Origin: Chitinophagaceae bacterium
Lineage (GTDB): Bacteria; Bacteroidota; Bacteroidia; Chitinophagales; Chitinophagaceae
Direction of reading: 5' to 3'
Length of the DNA stretch: 41,474 bases
Assembly: GCA_023251255.1 (NCBI GenBank)
Contig: JAHEZD010000027.1
Location: 28,028-69,501 of the forward strand
Of the stretch, positions 2,406-8,341 are shown piece after piece. The stretch's first letter is position 1; every line of letters starts with the position of its first letter. The notes below the pieces were generated by a model. The model was not told the origin of the DNA. It searched no databases and saw only the letters and a program-made list of their open reading frames with translations. The position numbers were made by a program, and so were the translations under genes.

Positions 2406-3839
2406 TTATTTGAGGTATATGCGATTGAAGATGCCACTGTTCACGGGGCCACCTGTTTCGGTACTGCAGATGTACACGTCGTTGTTCATGCCCGGGAAAA
2501 TGATGCCCATGGTTGTTTCCATTGCTTCCAGTTCCATATAGGCCAGTTCCTCTCCGGTGGACAGTTGCAGCACCACAAAATGGTCATGGCCGTCCTTGTA
2601 ATCGTTGATGTATAAAAGGTCGGTGGAAGTAACAATGGCAGGTGACGCACTGATAAAATAGCTTTTCTCCCATAGCTTCTCCAATGTTCCATCCTTGTAA
2701 AGTCGATAGGCAGCAATCAGTTCGTTGGTAGGGGTGAAGGTAATCATGGTACCATGGTCGGCATTGGAATAGGGGTCGCCACCTACTTTCCAGAAATTGA
2801 TACCCGGCTGGTCTGAAACAGCAACATGTGGTGCAAGTACCTTTGGCGGGTCAGTTACCGGATGCGTGAAGAAATGCAGGGGCTCGGTAATGTATTCGCC
2901 CGGTGCGGAATTGTCGGGGAACACCACATGGCTCTTCATGAACAGCGTACCATTTGCCCAAGTGGTGCTTGTAGCTTCCTCTTCCTTGTAGGTGGCCGTC
3001 CAGTCTTCGTCCAACACGAAATCATCATCGGTTATCCGGAACCGGCGCGACTGTGACATGGTGGGCATATAGGCAAAGGCGGCCCCTGGTTCGGTTTCGT
3101 CAATCATCAGGCGGGCCGACTGCACTTCAATGAATTTGGACACGAGTATATCGAGATTGTTTGGGTCAATCTGCAGTGCCCACCCCTTGCCCATGTTCTG
3201 GGCGGTAAAGCATTTGGTTACAATGCGGCCATTGCCCAGCACCTGGAGGCCATTGTAAATGGTGGAGGTGGCCATGCCCGGTTGTTCACCGTCCACCAGT
3301 GGCAGTTCAATGGAAATAAGGATGTCCATGCTGTCCGGGTCTATTTTGTACAGCACTGTTTGGGCCACGGCATATACAAAACCATTGGCATGCATCAGCA
3401 TTCCGCCTGGATAGTTCACAGCCCTGTCCCTGCCCACCGTCAGTTCCCGCATTTGGTACTGCATGGTTACTGCATCCAGTTTGGCAATGCAGGGCACATG
3501 CTTCCGGTCGTCAAGCAATTGATGCAGTGTATCGGATCTTCCATACGTACTGTGCGTCATGTAAAGCTTGGTGTACATGTTCATCAGGTAGGGCATGCCC
3601 CCCATTACGAATACTTGGCCCTTCTCACGTGTGGCACCCACAATGGGCTGGTCCATTTGGACCGTGTCAATGGCGAGTTGCATCCGGTCAAAATTGGGAG
3701 GTAGGCCTCCAATGGGGGCTGTTTGCGTGCGCCAGGTATCTGCATGTTCCAAGGGCCAAACTGTGTTGTACAGGCCTGCTCGGGACCTGGCATGGGAATG
3801 CTTCACGGCCCCCTCGATATTGTCTATTGAAGGTATCAT
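2406..3839 (-). CDS. Beta-propeller-like protein of unknown function, first gene of the sulfatase operon
   Basis: The likely product from ATG at 3839 has 477 residues; an in-frame ATG at 3992 would add 51 residues with a poor N-terminus (MGPRTFPSNRLS...). That longer form does contain a hydrophobic patch ending in VHSC, which could be a weak lipoprotein signal, so the start is uncertain. The sequence consists of repeated beta-rich units with phrases such as GFVYAVAQTVLYKIDPDSMDIL, GWALQIDPNNLDIL and TDLLYINDYKDGHDHFVVLQL, which resemble PQQ/quinoprotein-type propeller blades. No catalytic residues or cofactor site can be named. It precedes the alkylsulfatase by 44 bp. A role in binding or sensing a sulfated ligand, or an arylsulfotransferase-like activity, would suit the context, but both are guesses. 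I do not recognise a named family. Confidence 0.75.
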   Translation of the reverse strand: MIPSIDNIEGAVKHSHARSRAGLYNTVWPLEHADTWRTQTAPIGGLPPNFDRMQLAIDTVQMDQPIVGATREKGQVFVMGGMPYLMNMYTKLYMTHSTYGRSDTLHQLLDDRKHVPCIAKLDAVTMQYQMRELTVGRDRAVNYPGGMLMHANGFVYAVAQTVLYKIDPDSMDILISIELPLVDGEQPGMATSTIYNGLQVLGNGRIVTKCFTAQNMGKGWALQIDPNNLDILVSKFIEVQSARLMIDETEPGAAFAYMPTMSQSRRFRITDDDFVLDEDWTATYKEEEATSTTWANGTLFMKSHVVFPDNSAPGEYITEPLHFFTHPVTDPPKVLAPHVAVSDQPGINFWKVGGDPYSNADHGTMITFTPTNELIAAYRLYKDGTLEKLWEKSYFISASPAIVTSTDLLYINDYKDGHDHFVVLQLSTGEELAYMELEAMETTMGIIFPGMNNDVYICSTETGGPVNSGIFNRIYLK

Positions 3840-4473
3840 TAATTGATTGTTTAAATGAAGGGATGGTTGTTGGGTGCAGGAATGCACTGGGCCAATGCTA
3901 TTACTGGCCAATATCAATGTTACAGGTAGCCAATCCAAACTGGATCCGGTTGCATTGGATAACCTATTTGAAGGAAATGTTCTTGGTCCCATTTCTGGGC
4001 GATGGTGCTGGGCATCAAGTTAGTTGGTGGCAGCAAATAGGGTTATGTAGGGCTGCTGGTTTTATTGCAGTAGTTTTTTAGGTCCATTAGTTTGGTTGGT
4101 GTTTTAACTGGATGGAGCAATGTTGCTATCCTTTACGGTACAAGGTAAATTGATTAGCTGTGAATTCATAGCATTCTCGGCTCTTTTTTCAAAGATTCAG
4201 TATCAGCACGTAAAAAAATTGCGTGTTACCACGTATGTTTTGTTTGATAAAAATTAGTATGGAACCTGTGCTTATTATGAAGCATCACAATGCCCAATGA
4301 TATAGGAAACTATAAGGCCTGTTATGAGCAGGGGACCTTGAGGCAGTAAATGGTCATTTTTAAAAAGATGCCTTGAAAACATCACTGGTTGACGGAGGAA
4401 GTGTGCAGGATATTTACAATGAAAATAATTTGCAAATTAAAGAGTCCTTTCCTACTTTGCACAAAACAGTTGT
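3840..4473. other. Divergent intergenic region between sulfatase operon and reb genes
   Basis: If the propeller-like gene starts at 3839, about 630 bp separate it from the reb pair transcribed in the other direction. The part from 4081 to 4473 is AT-rich and has no convincing coding capacity. A TACTTTGC element at 4453-4460 resembles the Bacteroidota -7 box (TAnnTTTG) and lies just upstream of the first reb ATG, but no clear -33 partner was seen. Promoters for both units are expected here. Confidence 0.4.
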
Positions 4474-4806
4474 ATGCAAACTAGTGATACTGCAACAAAC
4501 GGCCATACATTATCCAACAGCAATGTGCTGGCAGAAGCACTGCAGGCCGGTTTTGTTTTCAATGTAAACATGCTCATGCAACAGATGGTAGCCAGCCAGC
4601 ATGCCCTGCAGCAGGTGCTCACCGCAGCCACTGCACGTTCCGTGGCCGATATTACCAGTCACTCCGCATCCGATACAGCTACGTTCAAACAGAGTGTTGA
4701 CATTGTGCTGAAGGCCATAGAAGAATCTGCATTGCTGCATATCAAAATGATGCAGCAGTTAACGGAAGAAGCAGTGAAATGCGCCAAAGTACTTAACAAA
4801 CAATAG
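4474..4806 (+). CDS. Small helical protein, candidate R-body component or accessory, upstream of rebB
   Basis: The 110-residue product is predicted by eye to be almost entirely alpha-helical. It has a Ser/Thr/Asn-rich start, then a long Gln/Ala/Met-rich helix (MLMQQMVASQHALQQVLTAA) and a second amphipathic helix (VDIVLKAIEESALLHIKMMQQL). There is no signal peptide or membrane segment. It ends 22 bp before the rebB gene on the same strand, so the two are almost certainly co-transcribed. R-body loci usually carry several small co-transcribed Reb proteins of similar size, and the alternation of NxxMQQM and SQHALQQ patterns is loosely similar to the RebB helix. Membership of the Reb family is inferred from context and composition; no conserved Reb signature is visible. 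Confidence 0.7.
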   Translation: MQTSDTATNGHTLSNSNVLAEALQAGFVFNVNMLMQQMVASQHALQQVLTAATARSVADITSHSASDTATFKQSVDIVLKAIEESALLHIKMMQQLTEEAVKCAKVLNKQ

Positions 4807-4828
4807 TATACTCACCAAAAAAAATACC

Positions 4829-5098
4829 ATGGCAGATATTGTTAACCCACAGATTACCGATGCAGTAACCCAGAGCAATGTAAAAGTAGTTGGCGAAGCA
4901 CCCGCCATGGCCCTTGGCAGCCTTTACCAGGCCACTGCACAGGCATTGTCCATTGCAGCACAGAATGCTGTTAGCCACCAGCAGAACATGAACGTGATTG
5001 CCCAGGCCGCCACTACACAGGGTGTGGCCCTGATTTATTCCGTGGATACTGCGGCTGCAGGGGCAGCCACGAAGGAAATCCTCAATACACCAGCTTAG
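4829..5098 (+). CDS. rebB: RebB family R-body subunit
   Basis: The 89-residue product shows the hallmarks of the RebB 'killing trait' family: the N-terminal VNPQITDAVTQSNVKVVGEAPA segment, then AMALGSLYQATAQALSIAAQNAV, then a QQNMNVIAQAATTQGVALIYSVDT helix. In Caedibacter these small proteins polymerise into R-bodies, ribbons rolled into a cylinder in the cytoplasm that unroll on a pH shift and rupture membranes. The protein lacks a signal peptide, as expected for cytoplasmic assembly. Its length (about 90-110 residues in the family) is normal. It is preceded at 22 bp by another small helical protein gene and followed by a convergent AI-2E permease gene, so the visible locus has two genes. 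Family assignment is confident; whether R-bodies form is unknown. Confidence 0.88.
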   Translation: MADIVNPQITDAVTQSNVKVVGEAPAMALGSLYQATAQALSIAAQNAVSHQQNMNVIAQAATTQGVALIYSVDTAAAGAATKEILNTPA

Positions 5099-5141
5099 CA
5101 GTAAATAGATAGGGTAGTATTTTTTTGTACGGTATCCCTTT

Positions 5142-5172
5142 TTCCGTAGTGCTGTTTGCAGGTACTACGGAA
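5142..5172. terminator. Hairpin between convergent rebB and AI-2E permease genes
   Basis: TTCCGTAGT (5142-5150) pairs with ACTACGGAA (5164-5172); the outer TATCC/GGATA bases can extend the stem with a bulge. It lies between two convergent stop codons. There is no good downstream T-run on either strand, so terminator function is only probable. Confidence 0.4.
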
Positions 5173-5243
5173 GGATATGTATTGTGCCTCTATGCCCTTA
5201 ATACTTATTTACGACCTATGATGCAGGGGCAAGTCATCCTTGC

Positions 5244-6317
5244 TCATTTTTTTGCTTTCTTCTCGTCCTCGCCAAACAATATGCCCCAGGCTTCCAATGA
5301 AGCAATGTTCTCGAACATTATTTTGAGCATGGCTGCCAGTGGTATGAAGAGGAACATGCCCGGTATGCCCCAAACAATATCGCCTACAATCACGGCTACG
5401 ATCATGATGAAAGCATTCAGCTTCATGCGTGATCCCACAATCCTGGGCAGCAGCACAATGCCATCGAGCAAGTGGATGGCCATTAAAACAATGGCCACGG
5501 TAATGGCCGTGGAGCCGCTGCTGTTGGCATAGGTTACCAACATGGAAATAAGGATGGCAGTATAGATGCCTATATAGGGAATGATGTTGAGCAGTGCAGC
5601 AATGATGGCCAGCAGCAGTGCATATTTAATGCCCAGCAATAGCAGTGCCGTGCTGATGAGCACCAGCATAATGGCAAACTCTGCCAGCAGGCCCATGATA
5701 TAGCCCTTGATGACCTTCTTGTTCTCACTGATGATCACGGGCATTTCATCGGGATAGTCCTTCTCCACCAGTTTCATCACGAACCTTACCAACCGGCCCC
5801 GATAGTATAATATGAAAAAAGTATAGATACAAACAAAGAGTATCCAAACCACAATATTGCCCAGCGAAAAAATGAGACTGTACAAAAAGCCGCTCAGGCC
5901 GTTCAGCAGTTCGTTGACCGAATTGCTCAGGTAGTCCAGTTGCTGTGCATTGTTCACATGGAATTTAAGGGTCACCCATTGCTGTAGGGAGGCGAACATT
6001 ATTTTTACCTTGATTACAATATTGGGCAGTTCCTTGCTGAAGCCGCTGATTTGTGAAGTGAGGAAATAGTTCACTATGAAAAAGCAAATGATGAAGCAGA
6101 ATACGGCCACCAAGCAGGCCATGCTTTTGGGAACACGCCACCGCTCCAGTAAATTGGCAATGGGCAACAGCAAAATGGCCAGCAGCAGCCCCGCAAACAG
6201 TGGGATGAGCAAGGTGGCCGCCCCACGGAGTACCAGTACGGTAAACACCAGGCAAACCATTACAATGGTCAACCGGATATAGAAGGGCAGTTTATTGGAT
6301 GTTAAAGTGCTCGGCAT
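5244..6317 (-). CDS. AI-2E family transporter (PerM/YdiK-like permease)
   Basis: The 357-residue membrane protein has the family layout. Two or three N-terminal transmembrane helices (LTIVMVCLVFTVLVLRG, LLIPLFAGLLLAILLLPIANLLERWRVP, MACLVAVFCFIICFFIVNYFLTS) are followed by a soluble helical part, then a C-terminal cluster of helices with the conserved LLAIIAALLNIIPYIGIYTAILI region and a final DGIVLLPRIVGSRMKLNAF...VWGIPGMFLFIPLAAMLKI segment. Members are inner-membrane exporters or permeases, some linked to autoinducer-2, others to Na+/H+ exchange, so the substrate is not known. The C-terminus is charged (GEDEKKAKK). It converges on rebB and is probably monocistronic. Family call is firm; function within the family is open. 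Confidence 0.92.
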   Translation of the reverse strand: MPSTLTSNKLPFYIRLTIVMVCLVFTVLVLRGAATLLIPLFAGLLLAILLLPIANLLERWRVPKSMACLVAVFCFIICFFIVNYFLTSQISGFSKELPNIVIKVKIMFASLQQWVTLKFHVNNAQQLDYLSNSVNELLNGLSGFLYSLIFSLGNIVVWILFVCIYTFFILYYRGRLVRFVMKLVEKDYPDEMPVIISENKKVIKGYIMGLLAEFAIMLVLISTALLLLGIKYALLLAIIAALLNIIPYIGIYTAILISMLVTYANSSGSTAITVAIVLMAIHLLDGIVLLPRIVGSRMKLNAFIMIVAVIVGDIVWGIPGMFLFIPLAAMLKIMFENIASLEAWGILFGEDEKKAKK

Positions 6318-6626: not shown

Positions 6627-7355
6627 ATGACCCGAAAATGTGCCAATTTTTTTGTTGGAGTAAACGGGCCAGAGCAAAATGGTGTCTTTAAATTAAGGGG
6701 CATCGGTAAAAAAATAACCCGGTCAATAAGGGTAAGCAGGAAATTTGGTGTACTGTTATTGACAGTAGGCATATTGAAGCATAAACACAACTATTTGCAA
6801 GCGGCAGAAGCACCCATTGCTGGTATTGATTTTTTGGAAAAGGCGTTTCATGAGCATTATGAAGGCATGCACCGTTATGCCTATACCATACTGAAGGAAA
6901 ACGAAGCAGCGAAAGATGCGGTGCAGCAGGTATTCATGCAGGTTTGGTCAAGAAAGGAATACCTGCAAGCAGGACTTTCACTGAAATCCTATTTCTATAG
7001 GGCCATACATAACCATTGCCTCAATGCGAGGTCAAGGGGCACCCGTCATGAAGTGTTGGAGCCGGAAAGTAGCCCAGTGCCCATCCATCCGGATCTTACA
7101 GTGGAGCTGAAGGAACTGCAGATGCAGGTGCTTTCCTCTATTGAACAACTGCCTCCCCAATGCAGGACTGCCTTCCTGAAAAGCAGGGAAGAGGGCAAAC
7201 CTTACAGGCAAATAGCCAACGAAATGGGCATCTCCATCAAAACGGTGGAGGCACAGGTTTCCAAGGCACTGAAAATAATGCGTAAGGCCCTTGCACCTTA
7301 TATGGATATCCTATTGTTGGCCCTTATCAAACACCTCCATCAATTCTTACCATGA
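6627..7355 (+). CDS. ECF-type RNA polymerase sigma factor (FecI-like)
   Basis: The recognisable domains start near residue 66: region 2 (FLEKAFHEHYEGMHRYAYTI, then KENEAAKDAVQQVFMQVW), a linker, and region 4 with a helix-turn-helix (IEQLPPQCRTAFLKSREEG, PYRQIANEMGISIKTVEAQV). These mark a Bacteroidota ECF sigma-70 factor of the FecI type. From the first ATG the product has 242 residues, but the first 55 or so look unlike protein of this family. A TTG at 6795 would give a normal size of about 186 residues, so the true start may be downstream. The stop overlaps the start of the FecR gene (ATGA at 7352-7355), showing translational coupling with its anti-sigma factor. Target promoters are unknown. 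Confidence 0.9.
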   Translation: MTRKCANFFVGVNGPEQNGVFKLRGIGKKITRSIRVSRKFGVLLLTVGILKHKHNYLQAAEAPIAGIDFLEKAFHEHYEGMHRYAYTILKENEAAKDAVQQVFMQVWSRKEYLQAGLSLKSYFYRAIHNHCLNARSRGTRHEVLEPESSPVPIHPDLTVELKELQMQVLSSIEQLPPQCRTAFLKSREEGKPYRQIANEMGISIKTVEAQVSKALKIMRKALAPYMDILLLALIKHLHQFLP

Positions 7356-8341
7356 TGCCCACCAAATCCATATTTCTCAGGTACCTTGAAGGTAAGGCCA
7401 GCCCCGAAGAAGCAGCTATGATAGAGGCATGGCAAGCTGCCTCGCCAAGCAATAAGGAAAGTTTTGACCAGCTATGGAAGCTTTGGCAACCGGCATCCAA
7501 TAAGCCTTATAAAGCTCCGGTTGTAAGTGATGCATGGAAGGACCTGCTAGATAGGATACAGGCGCCCACTACCGGTCAACACATACAGGCAAGGACATTA
7601 CCTGTAAGAAAATACTTTTTTATGGCCACTGGGGCAGCATTCATAGCCTTAATGGTATTTATAGGCTGGCCAAAGGACAGGCAGGAGGCTGCAGTGGTGC
7701 AGAAGCAATCAACTGGTGAATGTGTGAGGGATACCTTGGCGAACGGGCTTGTTGCCGTGCTGGATACCTATAGTTCCTTACGCTATCCAGCCGGAAGTAG
7801 GGGAGGCTTGGAACTTGGTGTCAATGGTGCGGTATTCTTTGAACCCCAACCCATCGGTAACACTCCTGTGACCGTTAAGGCAGGGGAGCTATTACTGAGG
7901 CCAGCAGCAGGTACCGGTTTTTATGTGCGCAATGATTCATTGAACGGCATGGTAGCAGCAGCAGTGGATGCTGGCGTAGTGGTGCTTTCGGACGGCAGCA
8001 ACCAAGTGGCACTGGAACCCGGTGAAGCAGTTGAATACAATAGTAAGCTGCATGTATTTGGCAGCAAGCATGCTGCCAATATCAACAGCTTCAGTTATGC
8101 TACCCGTGTTTTTTATTTTAATGATACACCATTAGCGGAAGCGGTTGGCTATTTGTCAAAAGCCTACCATATTCCCATCAGCATCAATAACCCAGCAGCG
8201 GCAGCATGCAGGATTACCACGCAGTTCGACAATAAAAGCATTGAATATATCATGGATATCATGTCTGCCACTTTACATTTCAACTATGAGTTTGTTCCGC
8301 AGCGCAACAGCATCAATATTTCCGGTGAGGGTTGCAATTAG
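7352..8341 (+). CDS. FecR-family anti-sigma factor
   Basis: The 329-residue protein has an N-terminal cytoplasmic part (IFLRYLEGKASPEEAAMIEAW...), one transmembrane helix at about residues 87-106, a periplasmic FecR beta domain (roughly residues 115-230), and a C-terminal DUF4974-like domain (FNDTPLAEAVGYLSKAYHIPI...). This is the standard architecture of Bacteroidota FecR proteins, which hold the sigma factor at the inner membrane and release or activate it when an outer-membrane partner signals. Its start overlaps the sigma-factor stop by 4 bp, and its end overlaps the next gene's likely GTG start by 17 bp. The three genes therefore form a tightly coupled operon. Confidence 0.92.
   Translation: MMPTKSIFLRYLEGKASPEEAAMIEAWQAASPSNKESFDQLWKLWQPASNKPYKAPVVSDAWKDLLDRIQAPTTGQHIQARTLPVRKYFFMATGAAFIALMVFIGWPKDRQEAAVVQKQSTGECVRDTLANGLVAVLDTYSSLRYPAGSRGGLELGVNGAVFFEPQPIGNTPVTVKAGELLLRPAAGTGFYVRNDSLNGMVAAAVDAGVVVLSDGSNQVALEPGEAVEYNSKLHVFGSKHAANINSFSYATRVFYFNDTPLAEAVGYLSKAYHIPISINNPAAAACRITTQFDNKSIEYIMDIMSATLHFNYEFVPQRNSINISGEGCN

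Follow-up and report, generated by a model that had tools for sequence, protein, structure and literature searches.

A RebB-family gene and a conserved small helical partner gene form a two-gene locus in Bacteroidota

Locus organisation and candidate transcription signals

The window (the whole stretch of DNA analysed, 41,474 nt from a Chitinophagaceae bacterium) was found to carry two small ORFs in tandem, encoding a protein of 110 aa, here termed P1, and a RebB-family protein of 89 aa. The pair is flanked on either side by unrelated genes of the opposite strand. The features of the locus are as follows:

2406-3992, minus strand: flanking gene of 528 aa without a Pfam family (Pfam search)
4429-4459, plus strand: promoter-like element, TTTG, a 20 nt spacer and TACTTTG (4453-4459), ending 14 nt 5' of the P1 ATG
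4474-4806, plus strand: P1, first gene of the pair, a helical protein of a new partner family (relatives and AlphaFold2)
4564-4671, plus strand: Reb-like segment, P1 residues 31-66 (hhalign and broad RebB-superfamily HMM)
4807-4828, plus strand: intergenic gap of 22 nt (34-39 nt in five relatives)
4829-5098, plus strand: rebB, RebB-family R-body protein of 89 aa (PF11747, E = 7.9e-32)
5139-5175, plus strand: stem-loop of 15 pairs directly 3' of rebB (pattern scan)
5227-5255, plus strand: terminator-like stem-loop with a T run 3' of it, overlapping the 3' end of the convergent transporter gene
5244-6317, minus strand: convergent AI-2E-type transporter gene (Pfam)

A TANTTTG motif was found to begin 21-27 nt 5' of the P1 ATG at all six loci that carry the pair (that of the window and those of five relatives described below), with a TTG at a spacer of 19-20 nt from it at three of the six (window, L028 and L116); motifs of this type were present in 6-16% of shuffles of the same 80 nt. 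The TTTG/TACTTTG element resembles the Bacteroidota -33/-7 consensus. Between positions 4200 and 5300, seven terminator-like sites were identified on both strands, compared to a mean of 0.9 in shuffles. With the TANTTTG element at all six loci and stem-loops following rebB, a single transcript is the simple reading, and the spacing of the genes and the upstream promoter-like motif indicate that P1 and rebB are probably co-transcribed.

A gene pair for an ECF sigma factor and a FecR-type anti-sigma factor lies 1.5 kb downstream of rebB (6627-8341, plus strand). The sigma factor FecI2 is reported to be required for rebP1 expression in Pseudomonas (excerpts of PMC8322103). A role for the ECF sigma/FecR pair of the window as regulator of rebB was set aside, because the three Fluviicola loci compared (L027, L028 and L033) share no flanking gene with the window.

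The RebB protein

R-body proteins of the RebB type build coiled ribbons which unroll and are able to rupture membranes, the trigger for unrolling in the Caedibacter system being low pH. The original prediction that the 89-residue protein is a RebB homologue was confirmed by profile search, with a match to PF11747 of 109.6 bits (cut-off 24) in which residues 9-76 cover profile positions 1-68 of 68. This makes it a full member of the R-body subunit family to which Caedibacter RebA, RebB and RebD belong, and it is 55.6% identical to a Caedibacter plasmid protein over residues 5-76. Features of primary Reb proteins, as given in excerpts of PMC13430693, are a proline-flanked QITD, KXXXD/E, NAV, QQ(Q), a domain-2 tyrosine and few cysteines. 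The window protein possesses QITD at residues 8-11, prolines at 7 and 25, K19-VVG-E23, N46AV and Q51Q52, and lacks cysteine, with Y33 being placed by the present analysis as the domain-2 tyrosine; the longer motif form QITDN of the same excerpts reads QITDA. By its profile match and these primary-Reb motifs, ORF 4829-5098 is a full-length RebB-family member.

A structural model of RebB gave a single long helix (pTM 0.37), too weak for fold comparison, and a sequence search of the PDB returned one irrelevant match (E = 0.35). No phage record searched with RebB matched. PHROG 32040, whose function is unknown, matched at E = 8.4e-25, and two viral contigs held merely a 26-residue piece of Reb motif within an ORF of 140 aa. 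This ORF (2830-3252 in both L135 and L136) contains a stretch near the N-terminal QITD motif of Reb proteins, and no further Reb match was found in it outside that stretch.

The P1 protein and its likeness to Reb proteins

Relatives of P1 were identified as five proteins of 110-111 aa from the Fluviicola group, with the start codon kept. Searches with P1 gave nothing over cut-off in Pfam and NCBIfam and nothing at E ≤ 1 in PHROGs and PADLOC, while sub-threshold Pfam matches (for example T6SS_FHA_C, E = 0.013) share no common direction. None of the six P1 proteins matched PF11747 at E ≤ 10, and BLASTP of P1 against RebB produced no alignment. AlphaFold2 (six sequences) predicts P1 to be a two-helix hairpin of residues 10-61 and 67-108 (pLDDT 76.6, pTM 0.56); a fold search of the PDB with this model returned 492 matches at E ≤ 10 and none at E ≤ 0.001, the best being generic helical proteins. 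P1 has 16 charged residues (K/R/D/E) versus 7 in RebB, and the content of A/Q/S/T/N is 48% and 55%, respectively.

The second protein had been described as showing no obvious Reb signature, a description which stands as far as matches over cut-off are concerned, but which has to be qualified for residues 31-66, where short Reb sub-profiles are weakly matched beyond what shuffles reach. The hhalign alignment of these residues fell in the C-terminal half of two sub-profiles of short Rebs, in the same register. The sub-profile of 54 short Rebs lacking QITD scored 24.95 and that of 20 RebD-like Rebs 25.77, each with none of 400 column shuffles as high, and at a probability of 34-37%, which is weak. 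P1 was rejected as a primary Reb, its score against these being ordinary (10 of 400 shuffles as high; 120 of 195 primary Rebs used). For narrower sub-profiles, the number of 150 shuffles scoring as high was 0 for HP1.4, 1 for RebB (in a different register), 1 for RebD, 3 for HP1.3 and 42 for HP1.2. In excerpts of PMC3583457, HP1.1 (about 360 aa) and HP1.2 (about 110-120 aa) are Reb-cluster proteins of group 1. P1 is of the size of HP1.2 and fits its two-part layout, yet the match between the two is no better than shuffles, and P1 was not accepted as an HP1.2 protein.

With a broad RebB-superfamily HMM, the six P1 proteins scored 10.7-17.9 bits from residue 33-34, compared to 12.7 bits for the best of 1800 residue shuffles; P1 of the window scored 13.3 bits, and 9.1 bits in a whole-sequence score. 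Ranked by this HMM together with 1214 non-Reb ORFs of 80-140 aa, a set unmatched in composition, the six took places 1 and 3-7. When seven Reb-type HMMs were applied to P1, the median lay above all residue shuffles for two (broad RebB and HP1.4), while for the other five the real P1 median was reached by 48, 348, 796, 50 and 198 of approximately 1800 shuffles (48 for broad HP1.2; 50 to 796 for RebD, RebB-tight, HP1.2-tight and HP1.3). In the reverse direction, the top 30 matches of the P1 profile were all Reb proteins. This enrichment is not taken as proof, because column-shuffled P1 profiles also draw many Rebs: a median of 14 among the top 20, all 20 in 2 of 40 profiles, and twice a best match at E = 0.0013 or better. 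Composition explains part of the likeness between P1 and Reb proteins. Distant homology between them is likely, on tests that are mixed and fall short of proof.

Recurrence and selection of the pair

Among the 14 genomes of the genus of Fluviicola chungangensis (G680), here called the Fluviicola group, P1 was found in five, exactly one RebB in the same five, and neither in the remaining nine. By arithmetic, an independent draw would give the same five of 14 once in 2002, a figure that ignores kinship, two of the five relatives (G681 and G1119) being nearly alike. P1 lies directly upstream of RebB in all six pair genomes, the window's included, with order and strand unchanged. P1 is more than a chance neighbour of rebB. 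The original prediction of a two-gene unit, in which the 110-residue gene is conserved beside rebB, was thus borne out, and on the two points that it had named as able to overturn it, P1 co-occurs with rebB and the 89-residue protein matches the RebB profile.

Identity between the window and the five relatives is 47-50% for P1 and 57-75% for RebB. A RebB tree (101 rows, 91 columns) was poorly resolved, and the RebBs of the pairs formed no single supported clade in it; the rows nearest to the window were the RebBs of four of the five relatives, L116 not being among these. When five flanking genes of the window were compared with ORFs of at least 100 aa in L027, L028 and L033, P1 was the sole match between loci. 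No neighbour beyond P1 and RebB is common to these three loci, so the conserved unit is the pair itself.

P1 was further searched for among the ORFs of 103 of 105 loci, two loci of the window's own genome being left out. Strong relatives (E = 6.4e-27 or better) occurred at three Fluviicola loci alone, with the next match at 0.013. A class-wide search with P1 matched three of 395 genomes, namely that of the window, G949 (Fluviicola group, at the same place as in G1029) and one marginal, and within the family around G680 four of 100 genomes matched, one of them marginally. The two marginal matches, in G794 (E = 0.0042, within an ORF of 303 aa) and G1024 (E = 0.0077, within an ORF of 455 aa), respectively, were taken as chance. 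Viral contigs and plasmids yielded no P1.

Pairwise dN/dS values of 0.06-0.31 were obtained at dS of 2.2 or less, mostly between one relative and another. The window's own synonymous sites are close to saturation, and just one of its comparisons (P1 with L116, 0.26) lies within this dS range. The pair is under purifying selection among the relatives.

Reb genes across genomes

RebB of the window is the sole RebB match of its genome at E ≤ 1, and within the genus RebB was found in one of ten genomes, that of the window. In a sample of the family, six of 294 genomes matched RebB at E ≤ 0.01, with matches over cut-off in two, the window's own and G253, and in a sample of the phylum RebB was found in six of 395, the window's own being counted. 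G253 (65% complete) has six Reb matches on contigs C109 and C110 (L002, L007-L011), of the ordinary multi-gene cluster type. This patchy distribution of RebB fits horizontal transfer, which has been inferred for reb genes in PMC13430693 (excerpts).

Genome contigs scanned with RebB, for the best 80 of 209 relatives, gave 79 loci. Within this set, the top two relatives by E-value are from Fluviicola, three loci are of Fluviicola, and 67 of the 79 named loci hold at least three Reb-superfamily ORFs. Two loci, L039 (4884-5660, Lysobacteraceae MAG) and L053 (4770-5660, Lysobacter sp.), carry ORFs matching Reb that, at 258 and 296 aa, are about three times as long as usual, which may reflect either a long extension in frame or a fusion of Reb repeats.

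Comparison with known R-body systems

The R-body producers described in the excerpted literature have several Reb paralogues, in contrast to the one RebB of the window genome. RebA, RebB and RebC are together reported to suffice in E. coli (excerpts of PMC3583457), while Azorhizobium needs rebAZC3, rebAZC4, one of rebAZC1/2 and AZC_3784 (excerpts of PMC5527310). The last of these is essential, without similarity to known reb genes, and judged by its authors to be an assembly factor and not a component. The SDS-insoluble material of Pseudomonas contains RapA along with Reb subunits, and RapA shares its localisation with RebP1 (excerpts of PMC8322103); by description alone it can be likened to P1, as a non-RebB protein conserved together with RebB subunits. 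The Pseudomonas cluster, unlike the window pair, includes two RebB homologues, RebD, rcgA and fecI2 (same excerpts).

Group 1 clusters of the Bacteroidota Pedobacter and Reichenbachiella have RebB paralogues beside HP1.1- and HP1.2-like genes. The HP1.1 and HP1.2 queries were alignments of three and seven rows, whose labels were given in this analysis according to size and gene order. Neither family was found in the six pair genomes: HP1.1 matched in none of the six, and HP1.2 in none of the five relatives, while in the window genome it matched only rebB itself (E = 0.92). Both queries matched G682, G683 and G684; as all three had supplied HP1.1 rows and two had supplied HP1.2 rows, the independent control is the HP1.2 match of G682 alone (E = 5.7e-34). 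The P1-rebB locus does not have the group 1 synteny, in which HP1.1 and HP1.2 are present.

Solitary rebB genes of Chryseobacterium resemble the window in being the one RebB of their genome, outside a larger cluster, but differ in having no adjoining P1. In the two such genomes of the Chryseobacterium group, HP1.1 was absent and HP1.2 reached E = 0.14 and 0.18 at best. Their rebB genes (L047 4968-5267, Chryseobacterium cheonjiense; L014 1447-1725, G594) have neither P1 nor other reb genes nearby and occupy the same site, between aldo/keto-reductase-like and lipoprotein-like genes (named by eye), possibly as a one-gene version.

The use of reb genes in Bacteroidota had been thought undescribed, which did not hold, as such genes are published for Kordia algicida (excerpts of PMC3583457), and for Flavobacteriales and at least 10 species of Chryseobacterium (excerpts of PMC13430693). 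According to the latter excerpts, this 2026 survey dropped any cluster that had fewer than three reb genes and stated that all potentially functional clusters remain. With one RebB at E ≤ 1 and P1, the present locus has fewer than the at least three reb-related genes per cluster that the survey required, and the pair is a candidate conserved counter-example to that filter. Among open-licence PMC papers, none was found on R-bodies of Fluviicola, and none of those listed dealt, going by title and the opening of the abstract, with a two-gene unit.

Proposed function of the pair

The reading we favour, at a probability of roughly 0.55, is that of a minimal R-body-type operon, in which RebB would be the polymer subunit and P1 a co-assembling partner. 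One promoter would drive both genes, RebB would polymerise into a detergent-resistant coiled ribbon, and the ribbon would unroll on a trigger, which in Caedibacter is low pH. P1, a two-helix protein that has the Reb-like segment and an additional helix at its C-terminus, would assemble with RebB and, as a scaffold, cap or co-subunit, would stand in for the other Reb subunits and the accessory proteins that larger clusters encode. Physical association of the two proteins, ribbon formation and a trigger are presumed in this scheme, and the pair may act ecologically, for instance against grazing protists. The proposal draws on the RebB match and motifs, the single RebB, the conserved pair and the lack of HP1.1 and HP1.2 matches, together with the low dN/dS where measurable and the Reb-like segment of P1. 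It is weakened by the likeness of P1 to Reb proteins being weak, and absent with respect to primary Rebs and HP1.2. Furthermore, systems studied at the gene level use more Reb paralogues (in the excerpts available), so one RebB with P1 may make no ribbon.

P1 could instead stand outside the ribbon and serve a RebB homopolymer as an assembly or control factor (a chaperone, a seed or a brake), which we consider the less probable role while giving it real weight. Such a role has been suggested for RebC of Caedibacter and for AZC_3784 of Azorhizobium, the latter being non-Reb, essential and viewed by its authors as an assembly factor (excerpts of PMC5527310), and P1 is both less conserved than RebB and more charged; its Reb-like segment and A/Q/S/T/N content, however, suit a co-subunit too. 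That the pair forms a helical polymer or filament other than a coiled, extensible R-body appears rather improbable. The single RebB, the failure to find HP1.1 and HP1.2, and the lack of a two-gene R-body producer in the open-licence PMC literature searched are in keeping with such a filament, but RebB retains the features of a primary R-body subunit and its relatives in the pairs are under purifying selection. Larger clusters being usual among the best 80 of 209 relatives, with six Reb matches in G253 of the window's own family, the locus might also be taken for what is left of a larger reb cluster in decay. This is very unlikely, as leftover pieces would need to coincide by chance in six genomes, where the two genes stand in unchanged order with low dN/dS where measurable, and the pair genomes have no further RebB match and no HP1.1.

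A bolder form of the minimal-operon reading, put forward tentatively and on balance doubtful, is that the pair is the smallest R-body machine: a Reb subunit and a bipartite, Reb-derived P1 would suffice for a triggerable ribbon, P1 would merge scaffold and assembly roles, and the pair would move between distant Bacteroidota as a unit.

Significance

The R-body systems studied so far comprise several Reb paralogues and unrelated helpers (excerpts of PMC3583457 and PMC5527310). Reb genes in Bacteroidota were already known; what appears new, going by the open-licence papers searched, is a conserved two-gene unit with P1 as partner. A survey filter of at least three reb genes can discard conserved, selected loci. 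With two genes in about 600 bp, the P1-rebB unit allows the minimal requirement for an R-body to be tested directly, and it would be an appealing basis for engineering a membrane-breaking actuator. The recurrence of the bare pair in Fluviicola suggests that an R-body kit may be smaller than those studied.
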